Source: Haloterrigena alkaliphila
Lineage (GTDB): Archaea > Halobacteriota > Halobacteria > Halobacteriales > Natrialbaceae
Assembly: GCF_017352155.2 (NCBI RefSeq)
Contig: NZ_CP071462.1
Coordinates: 2,108,001-2,172,000, forward strand
Length of the DNA stretch: 64,000 nucleotides
Direction of reading: 5' to 3'
Shown: positions 13,132-23,320 of the stretch, one piece after another
Layout of the letters: each line of letters opens with the position of its first letter
How positions within the stretch are numbered: position 1 is the first letter of the stretch
The notes under the pieces: generated by a model
The model's input: only the letters and a program-made list of their open reading frames with translations
The model's database searches: none
What the model was told of the DNA's origin: nothing
Translations under genes and position numbers: made by a program

Positions 13132-13884
13132 TTACTCGTCGTCGTCCGCGCGAAACACGGCGATCGTCTCCTCGGCGACCCCGTTTCGGGAGAAGAGCGT
13201 GATGATGTCGTCGGGTCGGACGACCGTGTCGCCGTGGGGCGTCAGGACGGCGTCGTCCCGCTCGATGGCGACGACGAGCGCGTCGTCGTCGAGCACCTCG
13301 TAGCGAGCCGCTTCCTGCAGGTTCATGCCGGCGATCCGGGCGTCCTCGTCGACGGTCACCTCGGCGACTTCCGCGTCGCCGGAGAGGCTGATGAAGTCCG
13401 TCAGCATGGCCTCGCGCGTCTCGTCGGAGGGGCCGAACGGCGCGTACGCTCGCGTCGTCTCGTTCTGGACGAGCACCTCGTCCTCGATTTCGATCCCGAG
13501 ATCCGAGAGCGCGCGGGCGATCCGACGGAGATCCGCGGTGTCTTCCCCCACCGCGAGCACGTGCAGGTTCCGCCGACCGGTTAGCAGCTCCCGAACGTTA
13601 GTCACGCCGGGGATCACCTGCGCCCGTCTGGCCATCGATTCCCGCTCGGAGACGGGCGCGTTACACATGAAGAGGTTGGTGAGATGCCCCGCCGCCCGCT
13701 CGAAGTCCACGTCGGCGTGATAGCCGGTGATGATCCCCCGCTCCTCGAGTTGGGCGATCCGGTTTCGGATCGTCCCGGGGGAGACGCTCACGTCTTCCGC
13801 GATCGCCGGCGCCGCGGTGTTCCGGGCGTCGTCCATCAGCGCGTGGATGATTCGACGATCGATCTCGTCGAGCCGGTGGTCCAT
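13132..13884 (-). CDS. Lrp/AsnC-type regulator with a C-terminal RCK_C (TrkA_C) domain
   Basis: The N-terminal 60 residues are an Lrp winged helix (LDEIDRRIIHALMDDARN, then SPGTIRNRIAQLEERGII). A ligand-binding alpha/beta region follows (about 65-145). The last 80 residues form a TrkA_C fold (RYEVLDDDALVVAIERDDAVLTPHGDTVVRPDDIITLFS), which senses small ligands in K+ systems. It is divergent from the UspA/permease pair and probably controls it. An 18-base inverted repeat just upstream of its start suggests autoregulation. At 250 residues it is longer than ordinary Lrp because of the added domain. Confidence 0.92.
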   Translation of the reverse strand: MDHRLDEIDRRIIHALMDDARNTAAPAIAEDVSVSPGTIRNRIAQLEERGIITGYHADVDFERAAGHLTNLFMCNAPVSERESMARRAQVIPGVTNVRELLTGRRNLHVLAVGEDTADLRRIARALSDLGIEIEDEVLVQNETTRAYAPFGPSDETREAMLTDFISLSGDAEVAEVTVDEDARIAGMNLQEAARYEVLDDDALVVAIERDDAVLTPHGDTVVRPDDIITLFSRNGVAEETIAVFRADDDE

Positions 13885-13892
13885 GCTGGCCC

Positions 13893-13910
13893 ATAGTGGG
13901 TCACCACTAT
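13893..13910. promoter_or_regulatory. inverted repeat, probable operator of the Lrp-type regulator
   Basis: ATAGTGG and CCACTAT form a perfect 7-base inverted repeat with a 4-base spacer. It lies 9-26 bases upstream of the regulator's ATG, where a leaderless transcript would start. A dimeric Lrp protein could bind here and repress its own gene. Assignment is by position and symmetry only. Confidence 0.5.
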
Positions 13911-14128
13911 ACACGGTTCTGATCCGTCGCGCCCCACAATGGTAACTAAAAAGATATCACTACGGATTCAGAAATTTTCATGCGCATAAAGTAAGCAATC
14001 GTCAATACTATCGGATGGTTTATGATCTAGCCGGCTAAAGACGGCATCTGATGATCGATCGTACCTTCGGGGAGGACGCCCAGTACGGCCGAGCGAACGC
14101 CGGCGCGTGCGAACCGCCGGTCACCGAC

Positions 14129-14142: not shown

Positions 14143-14580
14143 ATGACTGATTCCTTCCTCGAGACGGTGCTCGTGCCAATCGCGAACGAGCGGGACGCCG
14201 AGCAGACGTGCGAGGCGATTCTGGGGAAGCTCGGCGACGACAGCGCGACGGTTCACGTCGTCCACGTCATCGAGAAGGCGGGCGGCGCCCCTGACAAAGC
14301 GAGCGTCACCCAGCGCGAGGAGCGCGCCGAACGCATCTTCGAACTCGTCGAATCGACGCTCGCGGGGACGAACACCGACGTCGACACGGAAATCCTGTAC
14401 GGCACCGACGTCGCCGGGACGATTCTGGATCGCGCTCGGGACCTCGAGGCGACGTCGATCGTCTTCACGCCTCGCGGCGCGAGCCGGTGGGTGAAGCTTC
14501 TGACCGGTGACGTCGCGCAGAAACTGCTCACGAACACCGATCGTCCGCTGGTAATCCTGCCCCGACCCGACCATGAGTGA
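14143..14580 (+). CDS. UspA-domain protein
   Basis: A 145-residue single universal-stress-protein domain: ETVLVPIANERDAEQ at the start, VHVVHVIEK, a helix, then ARDLEATSIVFTPRGASRW. It ends TGDVAQKLLTNTDRPLVILP, the usual C-terminal strand-helix-strand. The ATP-binding G-2x-G-9x-G pattern is not clearly conserved, so nucleotide binding is uncertain. Its last eight bases overlap the start of the permease gene, so the two are translationally coupled and the protein probably regulates or assists that transporter. Confidence 0.88.
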   Translation: MTDSFLETVLVPIANERDAEQTCEAILGKLGDDSATVHVVHVIEKAGGAPDKASVTQREERAERIFELVESTLAGTNTDVDTEILYGTDVAGTILDRARDLEATSIVFTPRGASRWVKLLTGDVAQKLLTNTDRPLVILPRPDHE

Positions 14581-16867
14581 CGAAGAACTCGCCAAGGACC
14601 TCGGCCTGCTCTCGGCGCTGGCGATCGGGATGGGGACGATGATCGGCGCCGGCATCTTCGTGTTGCCCGGCGTCGCGGCCCAGGAGGCCGGCCCGATCGT
14701 CGTCGTCTCGTTCGTGATCGGCGGCCTGATCGCGATGGTCAACGCCTTAGCGGTGAGCGAACTCGGGACGGCGATGCCGAAAGCCGGCGGCGGCTACTAC
14801 TACATCAACCGCGGGCTCGGGCCGCTGTTCGGCTCGATTGCCGGCATGGGCGACTGGATGGGGCTGGCCTTCGCGTCGGCGTTCTACTGCATCGGTTTCG
14901 GCGGCTACCTCACCGACCTGCTGGCCGGAACGATGCTCGCGCTGCCGACCCTCGAGTTGGGCCTGTTCGCGTTGACCGACATCCAACTCGGCGCGCTGGT
15001 CGCCGGCCTGCTGTTCGTCGGCGTCAACTACATGGGCGCCAAGGAGACCGGCGGCGTCCAGACGGTGATCGTCACGATCCTGCTGGGCATTCTGACCGTC
15101 TTCGCCGCCTCCGGCTTCCTCCACTTCGAGTGGTCGACGCTGACGACCGACGGCCTCGCGCCGACCGACGCGGGGTACGGTGCGATCCTGCCGGGGACCG
15201 CCCTCGTGTTCGTCTCCTTCCTCGGCTACGCGAAGATCGCGACGGTCGCCGAAGAACTGCAAAACCCCGGCCGAAACCTGCCGATCGCGGTCATCGGCAG
15301 CGTCGGCGTCGTCACCGTGATCTACGGCGTTCTCGTCGCCACGATGGTCGGCATCGTCCCGTGGCACTCGCTGGACGACAGCGTCCCCGTCTCGCAGGTC
15401 GCGGAGATCACGTTCGCCGGCATCCCCGTCCTCGACGCCGTCGGCGTGACGCTGATCTCGCTGGCCGCGATGCTGGCGACCGCCTCGAGCGCCAACGCGT
15501 CGATCCTCTCCTCGGCCCGGATCAACTTCGCGATGGGTCGGGACAAGATCGTCACGGACGAACTCAACGAGATTCACCCCCGGTACGCGACGCCGTACCG
15601 GTCGATCCTGCTGACCGGTGGCGTCATCATCGTCTTCATCGTCGCGCTCGGACAGGACCTCGAGATCCTCTCGAAGGCCGCCAGCGTGCTCCACCTGATC
15701 GTCTACGCGCTGATGAACGTCGCGCTGATCGCGTTCCGGCAGGCCGACGTCCCCGAGTACGATCCCGACTTCCGGGTGCCGTTCTACCCGGTGACGCCGA
15801 TCCTCGGCGCGATCCTCTCGTTCGGGCTCGTCGCCTTCATGGAGACGATCGAGATCGCGCTGAGCCTCGCGTTCGTCTCCGTCGCGGTGCTGTGGTACGC
15901 GTTCTACGCCCGCTCGAAGACGCCCCGGCAGGGCGTGCTCGGCGAGTACATCCTCGACCGCTCCGAGGAGATGCCCGACGTCGCGGTCTCGGCGGCCAGC
16001 GCGGCCCGCCCCGACGGCTCGAGCGAGTATCGCGTCATGGTTCCGCTGGCCAACCCGCGTACCGAGCAGCACCTGATCGAACTGGCCAGCACGCTCGCCG
16101 CCGAAAACGACGGCGTCGTCCACGCGGTCCACATCGTACAGGTGCCCGATCAGACGCCGCTAGAGGGCGCCACCGACTACGTCGACCGGATCGACGCCGA
16201 GTCCGCGAAGTTGCTCGAGCGGGCCCGCGAACACGCCGAAGACCGCGGTGCTCCGATCGAGACGACGACGATCGTCTCCCACCGCTCGTTCGAGGAAGTG
16301 TTCGACGCGGCCCGTCAGCACGACGCCGATCGGGTCGTGATGGGGTGGGGCGGCGACCGCCCGTGGACCGCGGGCCGCGCCGAGCGCCCGCTGGACGAAC
16401 TCGCCGCCGACCTGCCGTGTGACTTCCTCGTCCTGAAGGACCGCGGCTACGATCCGTCGCGGATCCTCCTGCCGACGGCCGGCGGTCCCGACTCCGATCT
16501 CAGCGCCGAAGTCGCGAAGACGCTGCGTTCGGCGACGGGATCGACGATTCAGCTACTCCACGTCGTCGACGACGAGAACGAGCGCGAGGCCGGCGAGCAG
16601 TTCCTCGCGAACTGGGCGGCCGAACACGGCTTCGGCGACGCCGTGTTGACCGTCGACGATAGCGGCGACGTCGAGGGCGCGATCGCCCGCGAGGCCGCGG
16701 ACAAATCGCTCGTGATCATCGGCGCGACCGAGCGCGGCCTCCTCTCGCGGCTCGTCCGCGGCTCGCTCGTGCTCGACGTCGTCGACGACGTCGATTGCTC
16801 GGTCCTGCTCGCCGAGCGGCCGGCGGAGCGCTCGCTCCGGGAGCGACTGTTCGGACGCTCGGAGTAG
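14573..16867 (+). CDS. APC-family amino-acid permease with C-terminal tandem Usp domains
   Basis: The 764-residue protein has about 12 transmembrane helices in residues 1-450, starting with the APC signature GTMIGAGIFVLPG. LPIAVIGSVGVVTVIYG and a LeuT-fold second repeat follow. From about residue 480 two UspA-like domains follow (YRVMVPLANPRTEQHL, then DPSRILLPTAGGPDSDL), ending in IIGATERGLLSRLVRGSLVLDVVDDVDCSVLL. Substrates of such haloarchaeal permeases are amino acids or amines; which one is unknown. Control by the divergent Lrp-RCK regulator is likely. Confidence 0.92.
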   Translation: MSDEELAKDLGLLSALAIGMGTMIGAGIFVLPGVAAQEAGPIVVVSFVIGGLIAMVNALAVSELGTAMPKAGGGYYYINRGLGPLFGSIAGMGDWMGLAFASAFYCIGFGGYLTDLLAGTMLALPTLELGLFALTDIQLGALVAGLLFVGVNYMGAKETGGVQTVIVTILLGILTVFAASGFLHFEWSTLTTDGLAPTDAGYGAILPGTALVFVSFLGYAKIATVAEELQNPGRNLPIAVIGSVGVVTVIYGVLVATMVGIVPWHSLDDSVPVSQVAEITFAGIPVLDAVGVTLISLAAMLATASSANASILSSARINFAMGRDKIVTDELNEIHPRYATPYRSILLTGGVIIVFIVALGQDLEILSKAASVLHLIVYALMNVALIAFRQADVPEYDPDFRVPFYPVTPILGAILSFGLVAFMETIEIALSLAFVSVAVLWYAFYARSKTPRQGVLGEYILDRSEEMPDVAVSAASAARPDGSSEYRVMVPLANPRTEQHLIELASTLAAENDGVVHAVHIVQVPDQTPLEGATDYVDRIDAESAKLLERAREHAEDRGAPIETTTIVSHRSFEEVFDAARQHDADRVVMGWGGDRPWTAGRAERPLDELAADLPCDFLVLKDRGYDPSRILLPTAGGPDSDLSAEVAKTLRSATGSTIQLLHVVDDENEREAGEQFLANWAAEHGFGDAVLTVDDSGDVEGAIAREAADKSLVIIGATERGLLSRLVRGSLVLDVVDDVDCSVLLAERPAERSLRERLFGRSE

Positions 16868-16887: not shown

Positions 16888-17616
16888 TTACAGTCGGGTC
16901 ACGGCCTCGAGCGAGATGTCGATCGCGCGGCCGACGTTGTTCTTCGCCTTGTCGGGGAGTTCGTCGTCTTCGGTGTCGGTGCCCTTCTGGGTGCCCTCGA
17001 CGAGGTTCCCGTCGACGGTACAGATCGCACCGGCGCGCAGGCCCTTGCGGCGGGCCAGCGAGAAGACGGCGGCGGCCTCCATCTCGACGCAGAGCAGACC
17101 CGCGTCTTCCCAGTCGGCGACGTGTTCGTCGGTCTCGGCGTAGTAGGCGTCGTCGGAGACGATGGGACCGACGTGGACCTCCTCGTCGTTAGCTTCCGCG
17201 GAATCGACGAGCGAGGAGAGCACGTCGTAGTCCGGGACGGCGGGGTACTCGACGTCCTCGTAGCGCTTCGAGGTTCCCTCGTTCTTCGCGGCGCCGGTGG
17301 CGACGATCATGTCGCCGATCTCGATCTCCGACTGCAGCGCGCCGGTCGTCCCGACGCGGATGAAGTTCTCGACGCCGACCGCGGCTAGTTCCTCGACGGC
17401 GATGGCCGCAGACGGACAGCCGATCCCGGTCGAGCAGATCGTCAGTTCCTGCCCCCCGTAGGTCGCGTTGACGACCTTGTACTCTCGGTTCTGTGCGATC
17501 GTCTCGGACTCGTCGCAGCGGTCGGCGATGCGGTCGACGCGACCGGGGTCGCCCGGAATGAGCGCCCGATCGGTCAGGTCTCCGTCGTCGACCAGCAGGT
17601 GCGGTTGCGTTGCCAT
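16888..17616 (-). CDS. udp: nucleoside phosphorylase, uridine phosphorylase type
   Basis: Cleaves uridine (or a related nucleoside) with phosphate to base plus ribose 1-phosphate. The 242-residue protein follows the PNP_UDP_1 family: LIPGDPGRVDRIA (phosphate site), ICSTGIGCPSAAIAVEEL, RVGTTGALQ, and VEMEAAAVFSLARRKGLRAG (ribose and base site). The GTQKG segment fits uridine phosphorylases better than purine enzymes. It is the first gene of a nucleoside/pentose island with the sugar kinase at 18186, the R15P isomerase at 20063 and deoC. Substrate specificity is inferred. Confidence 0.9.
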   Translation of the reverse strand: MATQPHLLVDDGDLTDRALIPGDPGRVDRIADRCDESETIAQNREYKVVNATYGGQELTICSTGIGCPSAAIAVEELAAVGVENFIRVGTTGALQSEIEIGDMIVATGAAKNEGTSKRYEDVEYPAVPDYDVLSSLVDSAEANDEEVHVGPIVSDDAYYAETDEHVADWEDAGLLCVEMEAAAVFSLARRKGLRAGAICTVDGNLVEGTQKGTDTEDDELPDKAKNNVGRAIDISLEAVTRL

Positions 17617-17746
17617 ACCCCCCGATTCCGGCGGCGGCGAGAAAAAAGGTTCGAGGACGGATCCCGACGGTCCGTCGGGTCAGTACCCTGGAAACTGTCC
17701 CATTCCCCCAGTTTGCGATGCGTCGACTGCGAGTCGCGTGATTCAG

Positions 17747-18049
17747 TTACGTCTCCGGGGTGACCTCCACCCGATCGGGTGTCACCGTCACCGTGACCCC
17801 CTCGACGGTGAATTCGACGGTTCCCGACGCCCGACTCCGCCCGGCGTGGGTGTCGGCGAAGAGGGCGTCGAGGGCGTCCGGATCGACGTAGTCGTACAAC
17901 TGTCTGGTAGTCGCACTCGCATCCTCGTCGTAGTACTCTGCTAACGCCGTTGCGGCGGCGATACTCGGTGGTTCATTCCTGCCTCTCTCGTACTGGACGC
18001 GGCGTTTGAGCTCGCACCCATGGGACTCGCTGATCCTTCGTTCCGTCAT
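17747..18049 (-). CDS. HalOD1 output-domain protein
   Basis: A 100-residue acidic protein matching the haloarchaeal output domain HalOD1: PSIAAATALAEYYDEDAS in the N-terminal half, LYDYVDPDALDALF in the middle, and the terminal beta strands GTVEFTVEGVTVTVTPDRV. HalOD1 stands alone or at the end of signalling proteins in haloarchaea and its partner is unknown. It lies inside the nucleoside island but has its own AT-rich upstream region, so co-function is not implied. Confidence 0.85.
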   Translation of the reverse strand: MTERRISESHGCELKRRVQYERGRNEPPSIAAATALAEYYDEDASATTRQLYDYVDPDALDALFADTHAGRSRASGTVEFTVEGVTVTVTPDRVEVTPET

Positions 18050-18185
18050 GTCTCTCCGTCACGTCTCCGTGACTGTATAGAAAAATGACCAACGGCGTCT
18101 CCCATATAATTACCGCCGGATAGCAGGGGCTGAGAATTACCCCGTCACAGCACCGTCGCTCGAGACCGTACCCGTGTCCCCCCGA

Positions 18186-19073
18186 TCACTCGTCCCGCTC
18201 GCTGAGAAAGCGGTCGACCTCCGCGGCCGTCGGGGCGTTCCGGGCCCCCTCTCGACTCGCGGTCAGCGCCCCGCAGGCGTTCGCGTACGCGAGGGCGTCC
18301 TCGAGGTCAGTGCCCTCGAGTCGGGTGGCGAGAAAGCCCGCCGCGAACGCGTCGCCGGCGCCGGCCGCGTCGACGGCCTCGACGTCGAAGCCGGGGTGCG
18401 TGTAGGTCCCCTCGGGGGTTCGGAGTTCCGCGCCGTCGGCGCCTGACGTGACGGCGACGATTCGATCCGCCGGGCGGCGATCCAGTCCGTCGGACTCGCC
18501 CAGCGCCGCGGCCTCTCGCTCGGTGAGAAACAGCACGTCGGCCGCCGCGAGCACCGCGTCGTACTCGCGGTCGCCGAACCGCCGGCCGGGGTCGAAACTG
18601 ACGGTGATCCCGGCGTCGGCCGCGAGCGACGCGATCCTCGCGGCGGTCTCGGGGTGCTGGCTCGTGAGGTGGACGTGGTCGACCGACCGGACGTGGTCGG
18701 CGTCGACGTCCGCCGGCCGGACGGCCTCGTTGACGCCGTCGTTGCCGAGGATCGAGACTTCTCCCGAGTCGTCGACCAGGAGGTACTTGACGGCCGTCTG
18801 GGCGTCCTCGACGACCCGAAGCCCCGACAGCGAGACGCCCGCCTCCTCGAGGCCCCGTCTCGCGAGCAGCCCGTTATCGTCGTCGCCGACGCTGCCGATC
18901 AGGCCGGTCTCGACCTCGAGCCCGGCGAGCGCGGCGGCGACGTTGGCGGCGCTGCCGCCGCCGGACTGGCGCTGGGAGCGGATCGTCGCCTCGCCGTCGG
19001 GGACGGGGAGGCGGTCGACGCGCAGCGTCACGTCCCAGTTGACGTGGCCGGCGGTGAGTACGGTGGGGGGCAT
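18186..19073 (-). CDS. PfkB-family sugar kinase, candidate ribose-1-phosphate kinase
   Basis: A ribokinase-fold protein of 295 residues: an N-terminal glycine block (SGGGSAANVAAALAGL, near 36-51), VKYLLVDDSGE in the lid, and the anion-hole/catalytic motif GAGDAFAAGFL. Archaeal PfkB enzymes of this size phosphorylate ribose 1-phosphate to ribose 1,5-bisphosphate in the pentose bisphosphate pathway. The neighbours (uridine phosphorylase making ribose 1-phosphate, and R15P isomerase) point to that reaction, but sequence alone cannot exclude ribokinase or nucleoside kinase. The start MPPTVLTAGHVNWD was chosen at the true beta-strand start. Confidence 0.85.
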   Translation of the reverse strand: MPPTVLTAGHVNWDVTLRVDRLPVPDGEATIRSQRQSGGGSAANVAAALAGLEVETGLIGSVGDDDNGLLARRGLEEAGVSLSGLRVVEDAQTAVKYLLVDDSGEVSILGNDGVNEAVRPADVDADHVRSVDHVHLTSQHPETAARIASLAADAGITVSFDPGRRFGDREYDAVLAAADVLFLTEREAAALGESDGLDRRPADRIVAVTSGADGAELRTPEGTYTHPGFDVEAVDAAGAGDAFAAGFLATRLEGTDLEDALAYANACGALTASREGARNAPTAAEVDRFLSERDE

Positions 19074-19111
19074 TCGATACGACAGGAAAGACGACGGCGC
19101 CCGAAAAAACT

Positions 19112-19933
19112 CTAGGTGGCGATAAAGAGCAAGACGTTGTGGATGCCCGGCCCGAGTCCGACCGCGGCGACGCCGGCGAGCAGGATCCGCGCCTGACGGG
19201 GCGCCTCGTCGACGAATTCCTTGAAGAGGCCGAGGATCACCAGCGCGAGGACGACCTTCACAAGGATGAAGAGCCAGCCGGCGCCGATGTAGTCGGCGGT
19301 CGGCAGCGACTCGCCGGCCTCGAGGATCAGCGCCGAGAGGGGGACCGTCTCGGCGACGCCGATGACGTCGTAGCCGACGGCCGTCGAGACGCCGTCGATG
19401 GCGTGGCCGAAGACCACGAGCGCCCCGGTGTAACTCGTCGTCGCGGCGACGTCGGTGAACCAGAGGCTGAGCGCGACCCAGGCGATGGCGGTGACGATGC
19501 CGGCGACGACGACGCAGATGACGGGCCAGAACAGGTCGAACGTCTCCTGACTCCAGCCGGCGTTGATGATGACCATCGCGAAGACCGTGAAAAAGGCCGT
19601 CCCCGCGACGCCGAGGAAACGCGGGATGGTCGGCTGTAACCCCCCGGCGTAGAGGAATATCGCGACGATCCAGCAGAGCCCCGCCGCGATCGCCGTGATC
19701 AGATAGACGGTCGGCGTCGCGAACAGTATCTCGAAACGATCCGGGTAGGCTGACAGCTGATAGAGGACGTGAAGGGCCGAACCGAGCATCATCCACGGCG
19801 CGAACGCCAGCACTGTCCGGTCGGTCACCGGCGGCTCGAGGGCCCACAGCAGTGCGACGGTCCCCGCCAGCACCACGAGGATCGGGACGAGGAGATACCA
19901 CGGTGGAAGGGCGAACCCCTCGGGTAATACCAT
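19112..19933 (-). CDS. DUF63 family multipass membrane protein
   Basis: About eight hydrophobic segments in 273 residues, beginning MVLPEGFALPPWYLLVPILVVL. Conserved polar positions inside helices include HVLYQLSAY, INAGWSQETFDL and VFGHAIDGVSTAVGYD. This matches the DUF63 family of archaeal membrane proteins, whose role is unknown. It sits between the sugar kinase and the R15P isomerase, 38 bases from the kinase stop, so co-transcription is possible. A transport role for the pentose pathway is only a guess. Confidence 0.85.
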   Translation of the reverse strand: MVLPEGFALPPWYLLVPILVVLAGTVALLWALEPPVTDRTVLAFAPWMMLGSALHVLYQLSAYPDRFEILFATPTVYLITAIAAGLCWIVAIFLYAGGLQPTIPRFLGVAGTAFFTVFAMVIINAGWSQETFDLFWPVICVVVAGIVTAIAWVALSLWFTDVAATTSYTGALVVFGHAIDGVSTAVGYDVIGVAETVPLSALILEAGESLPTADYIGAGWLFILVKVVLALVILGLFKEFVDEAPRQARILLAGVAAVGLGPGIHNVLLFIAT

Positions 19934-20062
19934 ACCGTATGTCGCACACACCAGTGCCAAACACTTTCCGGTCGACAATCATTCACTCGCGTGAACGATC
20001 GGACCGGGTCGGCGGAAACGGCGGTAACGGCGGTCACGCGGGACGACCGCGCCGGTCGCCGC

Positions 20063-21076
20063 TCAGCGTTCCCACGGTTCGCCGGTCGTCTCGCCGAACA
20101 GCTCTCGCATGAGTGTCACGATACTCTCCGGCGGGAACTGACCGCGCTCGGTGACGATCGCGTCGACGTAGCGCGGCGGGGTCACGTCGAACGCGGGGTT
20201 CTCGACCGAGAGCCCGTCGTCGGTGGAGTCCCCGTCGTCCGCTGCGATCTCGGCCCGTCCATCGTCCGCCGCGATCTCGGCCCGCTCGTCGTCCGCGAGC
20301 ACCTCGCGTTCGTCGCGCATCTCGATTTCGACGGTGTGGCCCGTCATCGTGTCCGGGTGGAGTTTGATCGTCTGGGCGGCGACCATCACCGGCACGCCCC
20401 GCTCGCGGGCGGTGACCGCCAGTCCGCTGGTCCCGACCTTGTTGACGACGCTGCCGTCGGCGGCGATGCTGTCCGCGCCGACCAGCACGTGGTCGGCTCG
20501 ATCCAGGTACCGGCGGGCCGCGCTGTCGACGATCAGCGTCACCGGAACGCCCCACTCGCGCAACTGCCGGGCCGTGATGTGGCCCTGCTTCCGGGGCCGC
20601 GTCTCCTTGACGATCGCCTCGATCTCCGTGCCGTCCTCGAGGGCGGCCTCGATACAGGCCAGCGCGTCCGTCGAGTGGCAGTGGGTCATCACGACGTCGC
20701 CGTCGCGCAACCGGTTCGAGCCGACCGCCCCGAGCGTCGACTGCGCCTGCGCGAGGTCCCGCTGGAACTCCTCGGCGCGGGCGATTGTCGAGGCGCGCAG
20801 TTCGGCGACGGTCTCGCCGTCCATCCCGCGCAGGACGTACCGGAGCGCGTTCGGGAGGCTCACCGCGGTCGGACGGGTCTCGTAGAGGGTCTTCGCCGCT
20901 TCCCGCAACTGATCCCGGAAGGCCGCGGGCGTCTCGGCATCGGAGCGATCGGCCTGCGTGGCGAGGGCGCCGGCGGCCGCGTCGGCGATCGTCGCCGCCC
21001 CGCGGACGTCCATCGCGGCGATGTCCGCGGCGGTGGCTTCGACGGCCGGATCGACGTTTCTCCCAGGATCGTCCAT
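20063..21076 (-). CDS. ribose-1,5-bisphosphate isomerase (eIF2B-related)
   Basis: Converts ribose 1,5-bisphosphate to ribulose 1,5-bisphosphate. The 337-residue protein has the eIF2B/MtnA fold. Cys133 (THCHSTDAL) and Asp202 (VGADSIAADGSVVNKVGT) sit at the positions I recall as catalytic in the Thermococcus enzyme, and the N-terminal MDVRGAATIADAA block is the family signature. Together with the phosphorylase and the PfkB kinase nearby this makes a pentose bisphosphate route. A nine-residue tandem repeat (RAEIAADDG twice) near residue 265 is a lineage-specific insertion. Divergent from deoC across a 72-base shared promoter region. Confidence 0.92.
   Translation of the reverse strand: MDDPGRNVDPAVEATAADIAAMDVRGAATIADAAAGALATQADRSDAETPAAFRDQLREAAKTLYETRPTAVSLPNALRYVLRGMDGETVAELRASTIARAEEFQRDLAQAQSTLGAVGSNRLRDGDVVMTHCHSTDALACIEAALEDGTEIEAIVKETRPRKQGHITARQLREWGVPVTLIVDSAARRYLDRADHVLVGADSIAADGSVVNKVGTSGLAVTARERGVPVMVAAQTIKLHPDTMTGHTVEIEMRDEREVLADDERAEIAADDGRAEIAADDGDSTDDGLSVENPAFDVTPPRYVDAIVTERGQFPPESIVTLMRELFGETTGEPWER
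20231..20284 (-). repeat. 27-base tandem duplication inside the R15P isomerase gene
   Basis: Two adjacent 27-base units differ at three third-codon positions and both encode RAEIAADDG. The insertion keeps the frame and lies in an acidic surface loop. A recent slippage or duplication event is the simple explanation. Confidence 0.8.
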
Positions 21077-21148
21077 GACCCCCGTTTGCAGTTCGGACGG
21101 CAAAAGTGATCGGGCGGGTTTTTGCCCGTCGACCGACTCCGTGTCCGT
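21077..21148. promoter_or_regulatory. shared promoter region of R15P isomerase and deoC
   Basis: Only 72 bases separate the two divergent start codons. A T-rich stretch (TTTTTGCCCG) lies about 30 bases before deoC, and its counterpart on the other strand (ACTTTTGCC) about 30 bases before the isomerase ATG. Both are at the right distance for leaderless promoters, which suggests co-regulation of the two genes. Confidence 0.45.
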
Positions 21149-21784
21149 ATGAACCGCAGCGAACTCGCGCCCCTGATCGATCACACCGTTCTCGGTCCCG
21201 AAACCGCGTTCGCCGACGTCTGCCGGGTACTCGACGAGGCCGCGGACCACGGGATGAACGCCTGCATCCCGCCGTTCGCCCTCGAGGAGGCCGCCGACTA
21301 CGCGCCCGACGTCACGCTCGCGACGGTCGTCGGCTTCCCCCACGGGCAGAACGCGGCCGACGTGAAGCGACGCGAGGGCGTCGCCGCCTGGAAGGCCGGC
21401 GCCGACGAACTCGACGTGGTGCTCAACGTCGGCCGACTGCAGGCCGGCGAGGACGACGTCGTCAGAGCGGAACTCGCCGAAGTCGTCGCCGCGGTTCCGA
21501 TCCCGGTGAAGGTGATCATCGAGACCGCGCTGCTCTCCGAGGAGGAAAAACACCGCGCCTGCGAGGCCGCGGAGGCAGCCGACGCGGCGATGGTCAAGAC
21601 CTCGACCGGCTTCGAAGACGGCGGCGCCACGGTTCCGGACGTCGAACTCATGAGCGAGTATCTGCCCGTCAAGGCCAGCGGCGGCGTCGGCAGTTACGAC
21701 GAGGCGATGGCGATGGTCGAGGCCGGCGCCGAGCGAATCGGTGCCTCGAGCGGCGTCGCGATCCTCGAGGGCGCGCCGGAATAA
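21149..21784 (+). CDS. deoC: deoxyribose-phosphate aldolase
   Basis: Class I aldolase that splits 2-deoxyribose 5-phosphate into acetaldehyde and glyceraldehyde 3-phosphate. The 211-residue protein has the Schiff-base lysine in MVKTSTGF, the second lysine in [11 protein letters not shown], and [12 protein letters not shown] before them. This is a short archaeal DeoC with normal motifs. Linked to the uridine phosphorylase and R15P isomerase, it completes deoxynucleoside breakdown. An alternative, that it serves as a ketose-1-phosphate aldolase in the halophilic pentose bisphosphate route, cannot be excluded but is weaker. Confidence 0.95.
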
Positions 21785-21931
21785 CACGACGACGGAGTGA
21801 GCGGTGGCCGCGACGGGAGATCGAGAGCCGAGACAGCGCGATCGGCGCAACGAACGCCCAGTCGACCCCTCGTCGTCGACGACAGTACCGTAACCCGAAC
21901 GCTTTTCGTCGCCGATCGTTCAACGGGGCCT

Positions 21932-23320
21932 ATGCTCGAGTCGGTCCGAACGCGGATTCGCTCGCTTCGTCGCCGCCTTCGTCGACTGGAGCGCCGCGAA
22001 CTCGACGCGTTCTCACGCTGGCTCGAACACACGGGAAACCTCCTGCACCTCTCGGTGCTCGTCTTCGTCCCGCTGTTGCTCGCCGCGGTGACGTGGCTGG
22101 CGAACGTGACGGCCGCCGTCTCCTTCCTCCTGTTCCCGCCGCTGGCGTCGGGGACGTACACCCTCTTCGCCGATCCCGAGGGCCGCTACTCCACGCCGAC
22201 GAAGTTCGTCGGCGGGATGACCGCCGGCGCGTGTTGTGGGTGGCTCGCGCTCGCACTCGCGGACACGGCGGGGCTGACCGGCCCCGGCGTCAGCGCGTCC
22301 GGCGCCGCGCTCGCGATCCTGTTCACCGGGATCGCCACCTGGGTGCTGGATCTCGAGGAGCCGACGGCGTTCTCGACCGCGCTGCTCGTACTGGTCAGCG
22401 GCAACGCCCAACTGGCCTACGTGCTCGGGATCGTCGTCTCGAGTTCGTTCGTCGCGGCGGCGTTCGTCGTCTGGCGCGACCGCTTCTACGAACGCCGGGC
22501 GCGGTACCTCTACCAGACGACCAACGGCGACGATCACGTCCTCGTTTCGATGGACGACGATTGGGACGGCGACGGGGACGCGGCGCCGGTCGTTCACTTC
22601 GCCGCCGAACTCGCCAGCGCACACGACGCCGGGAAGATCGTCCTCTTCGACACCGTCGACGACGGTGACGAGATCGCCACGAGCGAACCGGGACCCGCGG
22701 CCCGTCGTCTCGAGTCGTTCGCGGCCGATCTCGCGGCCGAGTACGGCGTTCCCTGCGAGGTCGTCGTCGCGGCCGGCGAGCGCTCATCGGGACAGGTCCT
22801 TCGCACCGCCCGGGAGCACAACTGCGACCTGATCGTCACGCCGTACGCCGAGCGCGACGGCGGCGGCCTCTCGCCGTTCATCGTCGGGCTGTTCGACAGC
22901 GAGATCGACGTCATCGCGTTCCGCGCCGCGAACGGCCGCCGCCGGTGGCGCCACGCCATGGTCGCGGTTCGGGGCGCCGGCGACACCGCCCGCGCGATGG
23001 TCGACTTCGCCAAGCGGGTCTCCGGCTCCTGGCAGCCCACCAGCGTCTGTACCTGCATCGACCGCGAATCCGAGCGCCGCGGCGCGGAGAACACCGTCGC
23101 GGATCTCGTCGACGCCTTCGACGGTCGCTTCGAGACCCACGTCGTCACCGAACCGGTCGAGTCCTACCTCGAGCGCGTCTCCCCCCAGTACGACGTGGTC
23201 TTCGTCGGCTCGAGCACCGACCGCTCGGCCGCCTCACGGTTCGTCTCACCGCCGACGTTCGAGCGACTCAGCGACCTCGAGGCCGACGTGGCGATCGTTC
23301 ACCGCGGCCGCCATCGGTGA
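21932..23320 (+). CDS. HPP-type membrane protein with C-terminal Usp-like domains
   Basis: Residues about 35-195 contain some five transmembrane helices and the HPP-family block LLFPPLASGTYTLF (a nitrite/small-anion channel-like family). The remaining 260 residues form two universal-stress-like domains (VVHFAAELASAHDAGKIVLFD..., then WRHAMVAVRGAGDTARAMVDF...). The product has 462 residues. The arrangement copies the neighbouring permease: a membrane transporter fused to Usp sensors. The first domain's basic N-terminus (RIRSLRRRLRRLERR) suggests a cytosolic start. Substrate unknown. Confidence 0.82.
   Translation: MLESVRTRIRSLRRRLRRLERRELDAFSRWLEHTGNLLHLSVLVFVPLLLAAVTWLANVTAAVSFLLFPPLASGTYTLFADPEGRYSTPTKFVGGMTAGACCGWLALALADTAGLTGPGVSASGAALAILFTGIATWVLDLEEPTAFSTALLVLVSGNAQLAYVLGIVVSSSFVAAAFVVWRDRFYERRARYLYQTTNGDDHVLVSMDDDWDGDGDAAPVVHFAAELASAHDAGKIVLFDTVDDGDEIATSEPGPAARRLESFAADLAAEYGVPCEVVVAAGERSSGQVLRTAREHNCDLIVTPYAERDGGGLSPFIVGLFDSEIDVIAFRAANGRRRWRHAMVAVRGAGDTARAMVDFAKRVSGSWQPTSVCTCIDRESERRGAENTVADLVDAFDGRFETHVVTEPVESYLERVSPQYDVVFVGSSTDRSAASRFVSPPTFERLSDLEADVAIVHRGRHR

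Follow-up and report, generated by a model that had tools for sequence, protein, structure and literature searches.

A nucleoside gene island of Haloterrigena alkaliphila very probably encodes the upper half of the published haloarchaeal non-carboxylating pentose bisphosphate pathway

Genes for a nucleoside phosphorylase, a PfkB kinase, a ribose-1,5-bisphosphate (R15P) isomerase and the aldolase DeoC lie close together in Haloterrigena alkaliphila, with a gene for a DUF63 membrane protein among them. This arrangement raises the questions of which pathway the island serves, which nucleoside enters it and whether the DUF63 protein takes part. The window, that is, the whole 64,000-nucleotide stretch of DNA that was analysed, is G000:C1:2108001-2172000 of a genome of 4.27 Mb, which is 99.81% complete. 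Profile matches and coordinates recovered all five genes where a sequence-only reading had placed them (Table 1). The five minus-strand genes follow each other in the transcription order R15P isomerase, DUF63, PfkB kinase, HalOD1 and phosphorylase, and deoC is divergent from the isomerase gene, with 72 bp between the start codons.

Table 1. Genes of the island, with positions counted from the first nucleotide of the window. The sequences were scored with six additional N-terminal residues for the kinase and 15 for DUF63, and without the first ten residues of the isomerase.
Gene product	Positions	Strand	Length	Profile score
Nucleoside phosphorylase, Urdpase1 type; probably guanosine/purine	16888-17616	-	242 aa	PF01048 159.5 bits
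Small HalOD1-domain protein	17747-18049	-		PF18545 73.4 bits
PfkB kinase	18186-19073	-	295 aa	PF00294; NF053626 461.8 bits (cut-off 330)
DUF63 membrane protein	19112-19933	-	273 aa	PF01889 60.0 bits
R15P isomerase	20063-21076	-	337 aa	TIGR00511 450.7 bits (cut-off 314.1)
DeoC, deoxyribose-phosphate aldolase	21149-21784	+	211 aa	TIGR00126 191.3 bits (cut-off 117.3)

The gene order is not a matter of chance, because the same order recurs in many named relatives. Among 80 named loci fetched with the DUF63 profile, the common order in Natrialbaceae is deoC on the opposite strand, followed by isomerase, DUF63, kinase, HalOD1 and phosphorylase. The phosphorylase was present in 67 of these loci, the kinase and deoC in 65 each, HalOD1 in 52 and the isomerase in 50. 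Judged by the DUF63 protein, the nearest named relatives are Natronorubrum texcoconense (82%) and Haloterrigena salina (81%). The HalOD1 gene between kinase and phosphorylase matches the DdfA model with 51.2 bits, under the cut-off of 70, and is possibly regulatory. The neighbours of the island are an Lrp/AsnC-type regulator that also carries a TrkA-C domain (13132-13914), a long permease-like ORF (14573-16867) and a protein combining TM_HPP and Usp domains (21893-23320).

Diagnostic features of the enzymes agree with their family assignment. The kinase carries a GAGDAF motif and passes the cut-off of NF053626, while its score for NF041134 is far under the cut-off of that model. Cys133 and Asp202 of the isomerase, the two residues singled out in the sequence-only reading, were both confirmed in the sequence and align with their Cys and Asp counterparts in 5yfj, a solved R15P isomerase, at chain positions 135 and 204 by our own count, the chain being taken as two residues longer. 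Lys150 of DeoC aligns with the lysine of the IKTSTG motif in E. coli DeoC, which forms the Schiff base, and the TIGR00126 cut-off is passed. The deoC gene itself is confirmed. Its use for deoxynucleosides is only a proposal, as DeoC needs deoxyribose 5-phosphate and no enzyme leading there from deoxyribose 1-phosphate was recognised. Literature searches gave no match on a ribose-1-phosphate kinase acting with deoxyribose, nor on deoC in Haloferax.

The two later steps that the window lacks were found elsewhere in the same genome. An overlapping gene pair, about 1.7 Mb from the island (G000:C1:436685-438033, minus strand, 4-base overlap), encodes a ribulose bisphosphate (RuBP) 5-phosphatase (G000:C1:437323-438033; NF053830 398.2 bits, cut-off 330) and a ribulose-1-phosphate aldolase (NF053831 373.7 bits, cut-off 300). 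RubisCO, which the sequence-only reading had named as a finding that would contradict its proposal, gave 0 matches in this nearly complete genome. It is evident that all five pathway enzymes are encoded and RubisCO is absent, in line with the proposed fit of these genes to a non-carboxylating pentose bisphosphate route.

We are therefore highly confident that the island encodes the upper half of the pathway already known from haloarchaea. For its reactions we rely on Sato et al. (2022; PMC9700705), whereas family membership, active-site residues, gene order and enzyme presence were established here. A predicted guanosine/purine nucleoside phosphorylase would release ribose 1-phosphate, which the ATP-dependent PfkB kinase would convert to ribose 1,5-bisphosphate and the R15P isomerase to ribulose 1,5-bisphosphate. 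The enzymes of the distant pair would then take over: the phosphatase would yield ribulose 1-phosphate, and the aldolase, a class II enzyme, would cleave it to dihydroxyacetone phosphate (DHAP) and glycolaldehyde. The divergent DeoC would serve a deoxyribose branch. The kinase and isomerase might instead supply bisphosphates to nucleotide synthesis (from R15P to PRPP or NMPs) and not to ribose breakdown, as R15P connects nucleosides with NMPs in Thermococcus (PMC9700705). However, no NMP phosphorylase exceeded the cut-off in the genome (best score 34.7 bits against 535), and the breakdown enzymes, RuBP phosphatase and ribulose-1-phosphate aldolase, are encoded, so that we regard a role in nucleotide synthesis as highly improbable.

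To see how the route is distributed, we surveyed 145 haloarchaeal genomes. The isomerase exceeds its cut-off in 94 of them and the PfkB kinase in 117. RubisCO matches occur in 53 of the 145 genomes, two of them fragments, and in 51 of the 94 isomerase genomes; the earlier statement that haloarchaea generally lack RubisCO is thus too strong. A relative of the RuBP phosphatase (E <= 1e-20) was found in 46 genomes, of which 45 were counted after one match (G126, 36% identity) had been dropped, and the isomerase is present in all 45. Among the isomerase genomes, 39 have the phosphatase without RubisCO, 45 have RubisCO without the phosphatase, six have both and four (G024, G068, G079 and G140) have neither. 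This co-occurrence matches the published pattern, but the two outlets do not strictly exclude each other, because six genomes match both and four match neither. The RubisCO match is a fragment in two of the six. In the other four (G012, G023, G026 and G127), it is full-length and a RuBP phosphatase relative is encoded as well, so that by gene content a single genome may have both a carboxylating and a non-carboxylating outlet.

Which nucleoside feeds the island depends on the phosphorylase, which the sequence-only reading had called a uridine phosphorylase. This name reflects family homology: the top-scoring NCBIfam model is that of uridine phosphorylase (TIGR01718), and uridine phosphorylases also head the PDB matches. 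The TIGR01718 score, on the other hand, is 210.1 bits and falls under the cut-off of 280.3. Alignment with E. coli Udp and DeoD showed that the PGQER stretch of Udp, including Gln166 and Arg168, which we take to be the uracil contacts, is deleted in the island enzyme as it is in DeoD, and PGQxR is missing in all 67 orthologues from the named loci. Moreover, a second close homologue in the same genome (G000:C1:94103-94756, L186) keeps the motif as PGQGR and reaches 261.2 bits with TIGR01718, which is higher but also under the cut-off. Purine recognition is not proved by the residues either, since Asp204 of E. coli DeoD, presumably a purine-binding residue, aligns with a Gly that lies one position beside an Asp. 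The island phosphorylase is the syntenic equivalent of Urdpase1, and the Urdpase1 of Halorubrum lacusprofundi showed its highest measured activity on guanosine, while Urdpase2 was left uncharacterised (PMC9700705). On balance, it seems unlikely that the enzyme at this locus is a genuine uridine phosphorylase supplying the pathway. Synteny and motif suggest that the island enzyme probably acts on guanosine or another purine and not on uridine, and that, of the two, the paralogue is the more plausible enzyme for uridine and a candidate for Urdpase2 of Sato et al.

The DUF63 protein was proposed earlier as a transporter for the bisphosphate route. This is unsupported as stated: a DUF63 orthologue occurs in 145 of 145 haloarchaeal genomes, whether the route is present or absent, and the protein cannot be a route-specific part for this reason. 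Most of the haloarchaeal genomes surveyed have two DUF63 (PF01889) copies, and the second copy of the present genome (L102:4460-5581) lies directly after a gene of the inositol monophosphatase family.

The linkage of DUF63 to the other genes was counted across the survey. A distance of at most 5 kb to the phosphorylase gene was seen in 100 of 144 genomes, on the same strand in all 100, across 41 of 59 genera and nine of ten families; a deoC gene is found within 5 kb in 103 of 144 genomes, on the opposite strand in 102 of them, across eight of ten families. Proximity to the kinase was seen in 74 of 119 genomes (the 117 above and two just under the cut-off, G036 with 327.4 and G124 with 325.7) and to the isomerase in 45 of 94. 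Set beside the count for the phosphorylase (100 of 144), the 45 of 94 genomes for the isomerase led us to reject a tie of DUF63 to the isomerase. In genomes lacking both kinase and isomerase, DUF63 is still near deoC or the phosphorylase gene in 21 of 24.

These links and their spread would favour an uptake or export permease for the nucleosides, nucleobases or phosphate of the cluster, which would add to the pathway reading. The AlphaFold model of DUF63, which is all-helical with a mean pLDDT of 94.1, points the same way, as do Asp180, Glu195, Lys226 and Asn266, which together with Thr184 are invariant in 46 sequences. However, the background gene order is conserved too. In a control of 24 loci, which were hand-picked from the 80 named ones and lie mostly outside Natrialbaceae by genus name, a neighbour that is presumably radical-SAM methylthiotransferase-like, as named from its sequence, recurs in 15, while deoC recurs in 16 and the phosphorylase in 17 (these two counted by eye). 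The weight of the linkage as functional evidence is weakened because other neighbours recur almost as often, and we rejected it as strong evidence of function. Furthermore, DUF63 is unlinked to all four genes in 24 of 145 genomes, many of them from the genus g21, and the PF01889 family occurs also in Methanocaldococcus and Methanosarcina. A sequence search of the PDB gave no clear relative, Foldseek gave no match with E <= 0.001, and the best VIA-align Z of 7.2 is within the range of this tool for common helical-bundle arrangements. The phosphate exporter XPR1 appeared in several VIA-align rows, most of them over the N-terminal half only, and was not used further. A search for viral relatives of DUF63 found none.

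With evidence on both sides, the permease for the cluster is a doubtful proposal. Another reading, in which DUF63 works in the membrane for core nucleoside breakdown, perhaps as a permease carrying nucleosides, bases or phosphate, and belongs with deoC and the phosphorylase instead of the bisphosphate enzymes, is likewise tentative and has about the same rather low probability. Both a transporter and an intramembrane enzyme are possible. The literature search on DUF63 returned one paper, whose excerpt contains a gene list including HVO_2859 (PMC9426492), and that on haloarchaeal nucleoside uptake gave no match. Should DUF63 prove to be a nucleoside permease, a gap in the picture of haloarchaeal nucleoside uptake would be closed.

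Finally, the island can be compared with known systems. As in the E. coli deo operon (deoC deoA deoB deoD), a nucleoside phosphorylase gene stands beside deoC, but neither deoA nor deoB was seen among the island genes and ribose would leave here through bisphosphates. The classical pentose bisphosphate pathway of Thermococcus differs in that the kinase here is of the ATP type, and RubisCO and an NMP phosphorylase over the cut-off are absent. The closest system is the non-carboxylating pathway of halophilic archaea, each activity of which was measured by Sato et al. (2022). In that study, all eight genomes examined had rbsK in an operon with the isomerase gene, and six had urdpase there as well; phosphatase and aldolase formed an operon in all 17 species having them; fucA-hadhlase made up a separate operon in most species; and glycolaldehyde reductase was present in no more than ten species, five of which have the pathway (PMC9700705). 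Its main text names neither deoC nor DUF63. The locus tags Htur_0571 (isomerase), Htur_0569 (kinase) and Htur_0567 (phosphorylase) imply by their numbering a single gene between isomerase and kinase and another between kinase and phosphorylase, the places taken by DUF63 and HalOD1 here. The likeness extends to the five pathway enzymes, the operon partners, the separate phosphatase-aldolase pair and the lack of RubisCO and of an NMP phosphorylase over the cut-off, and no difference of substance was found. Thus, the island is an ordinary, complete example of an already published pathway, which confirms one more haloarchaeal genome with the full route and corrects its likely nucleoside substrate.
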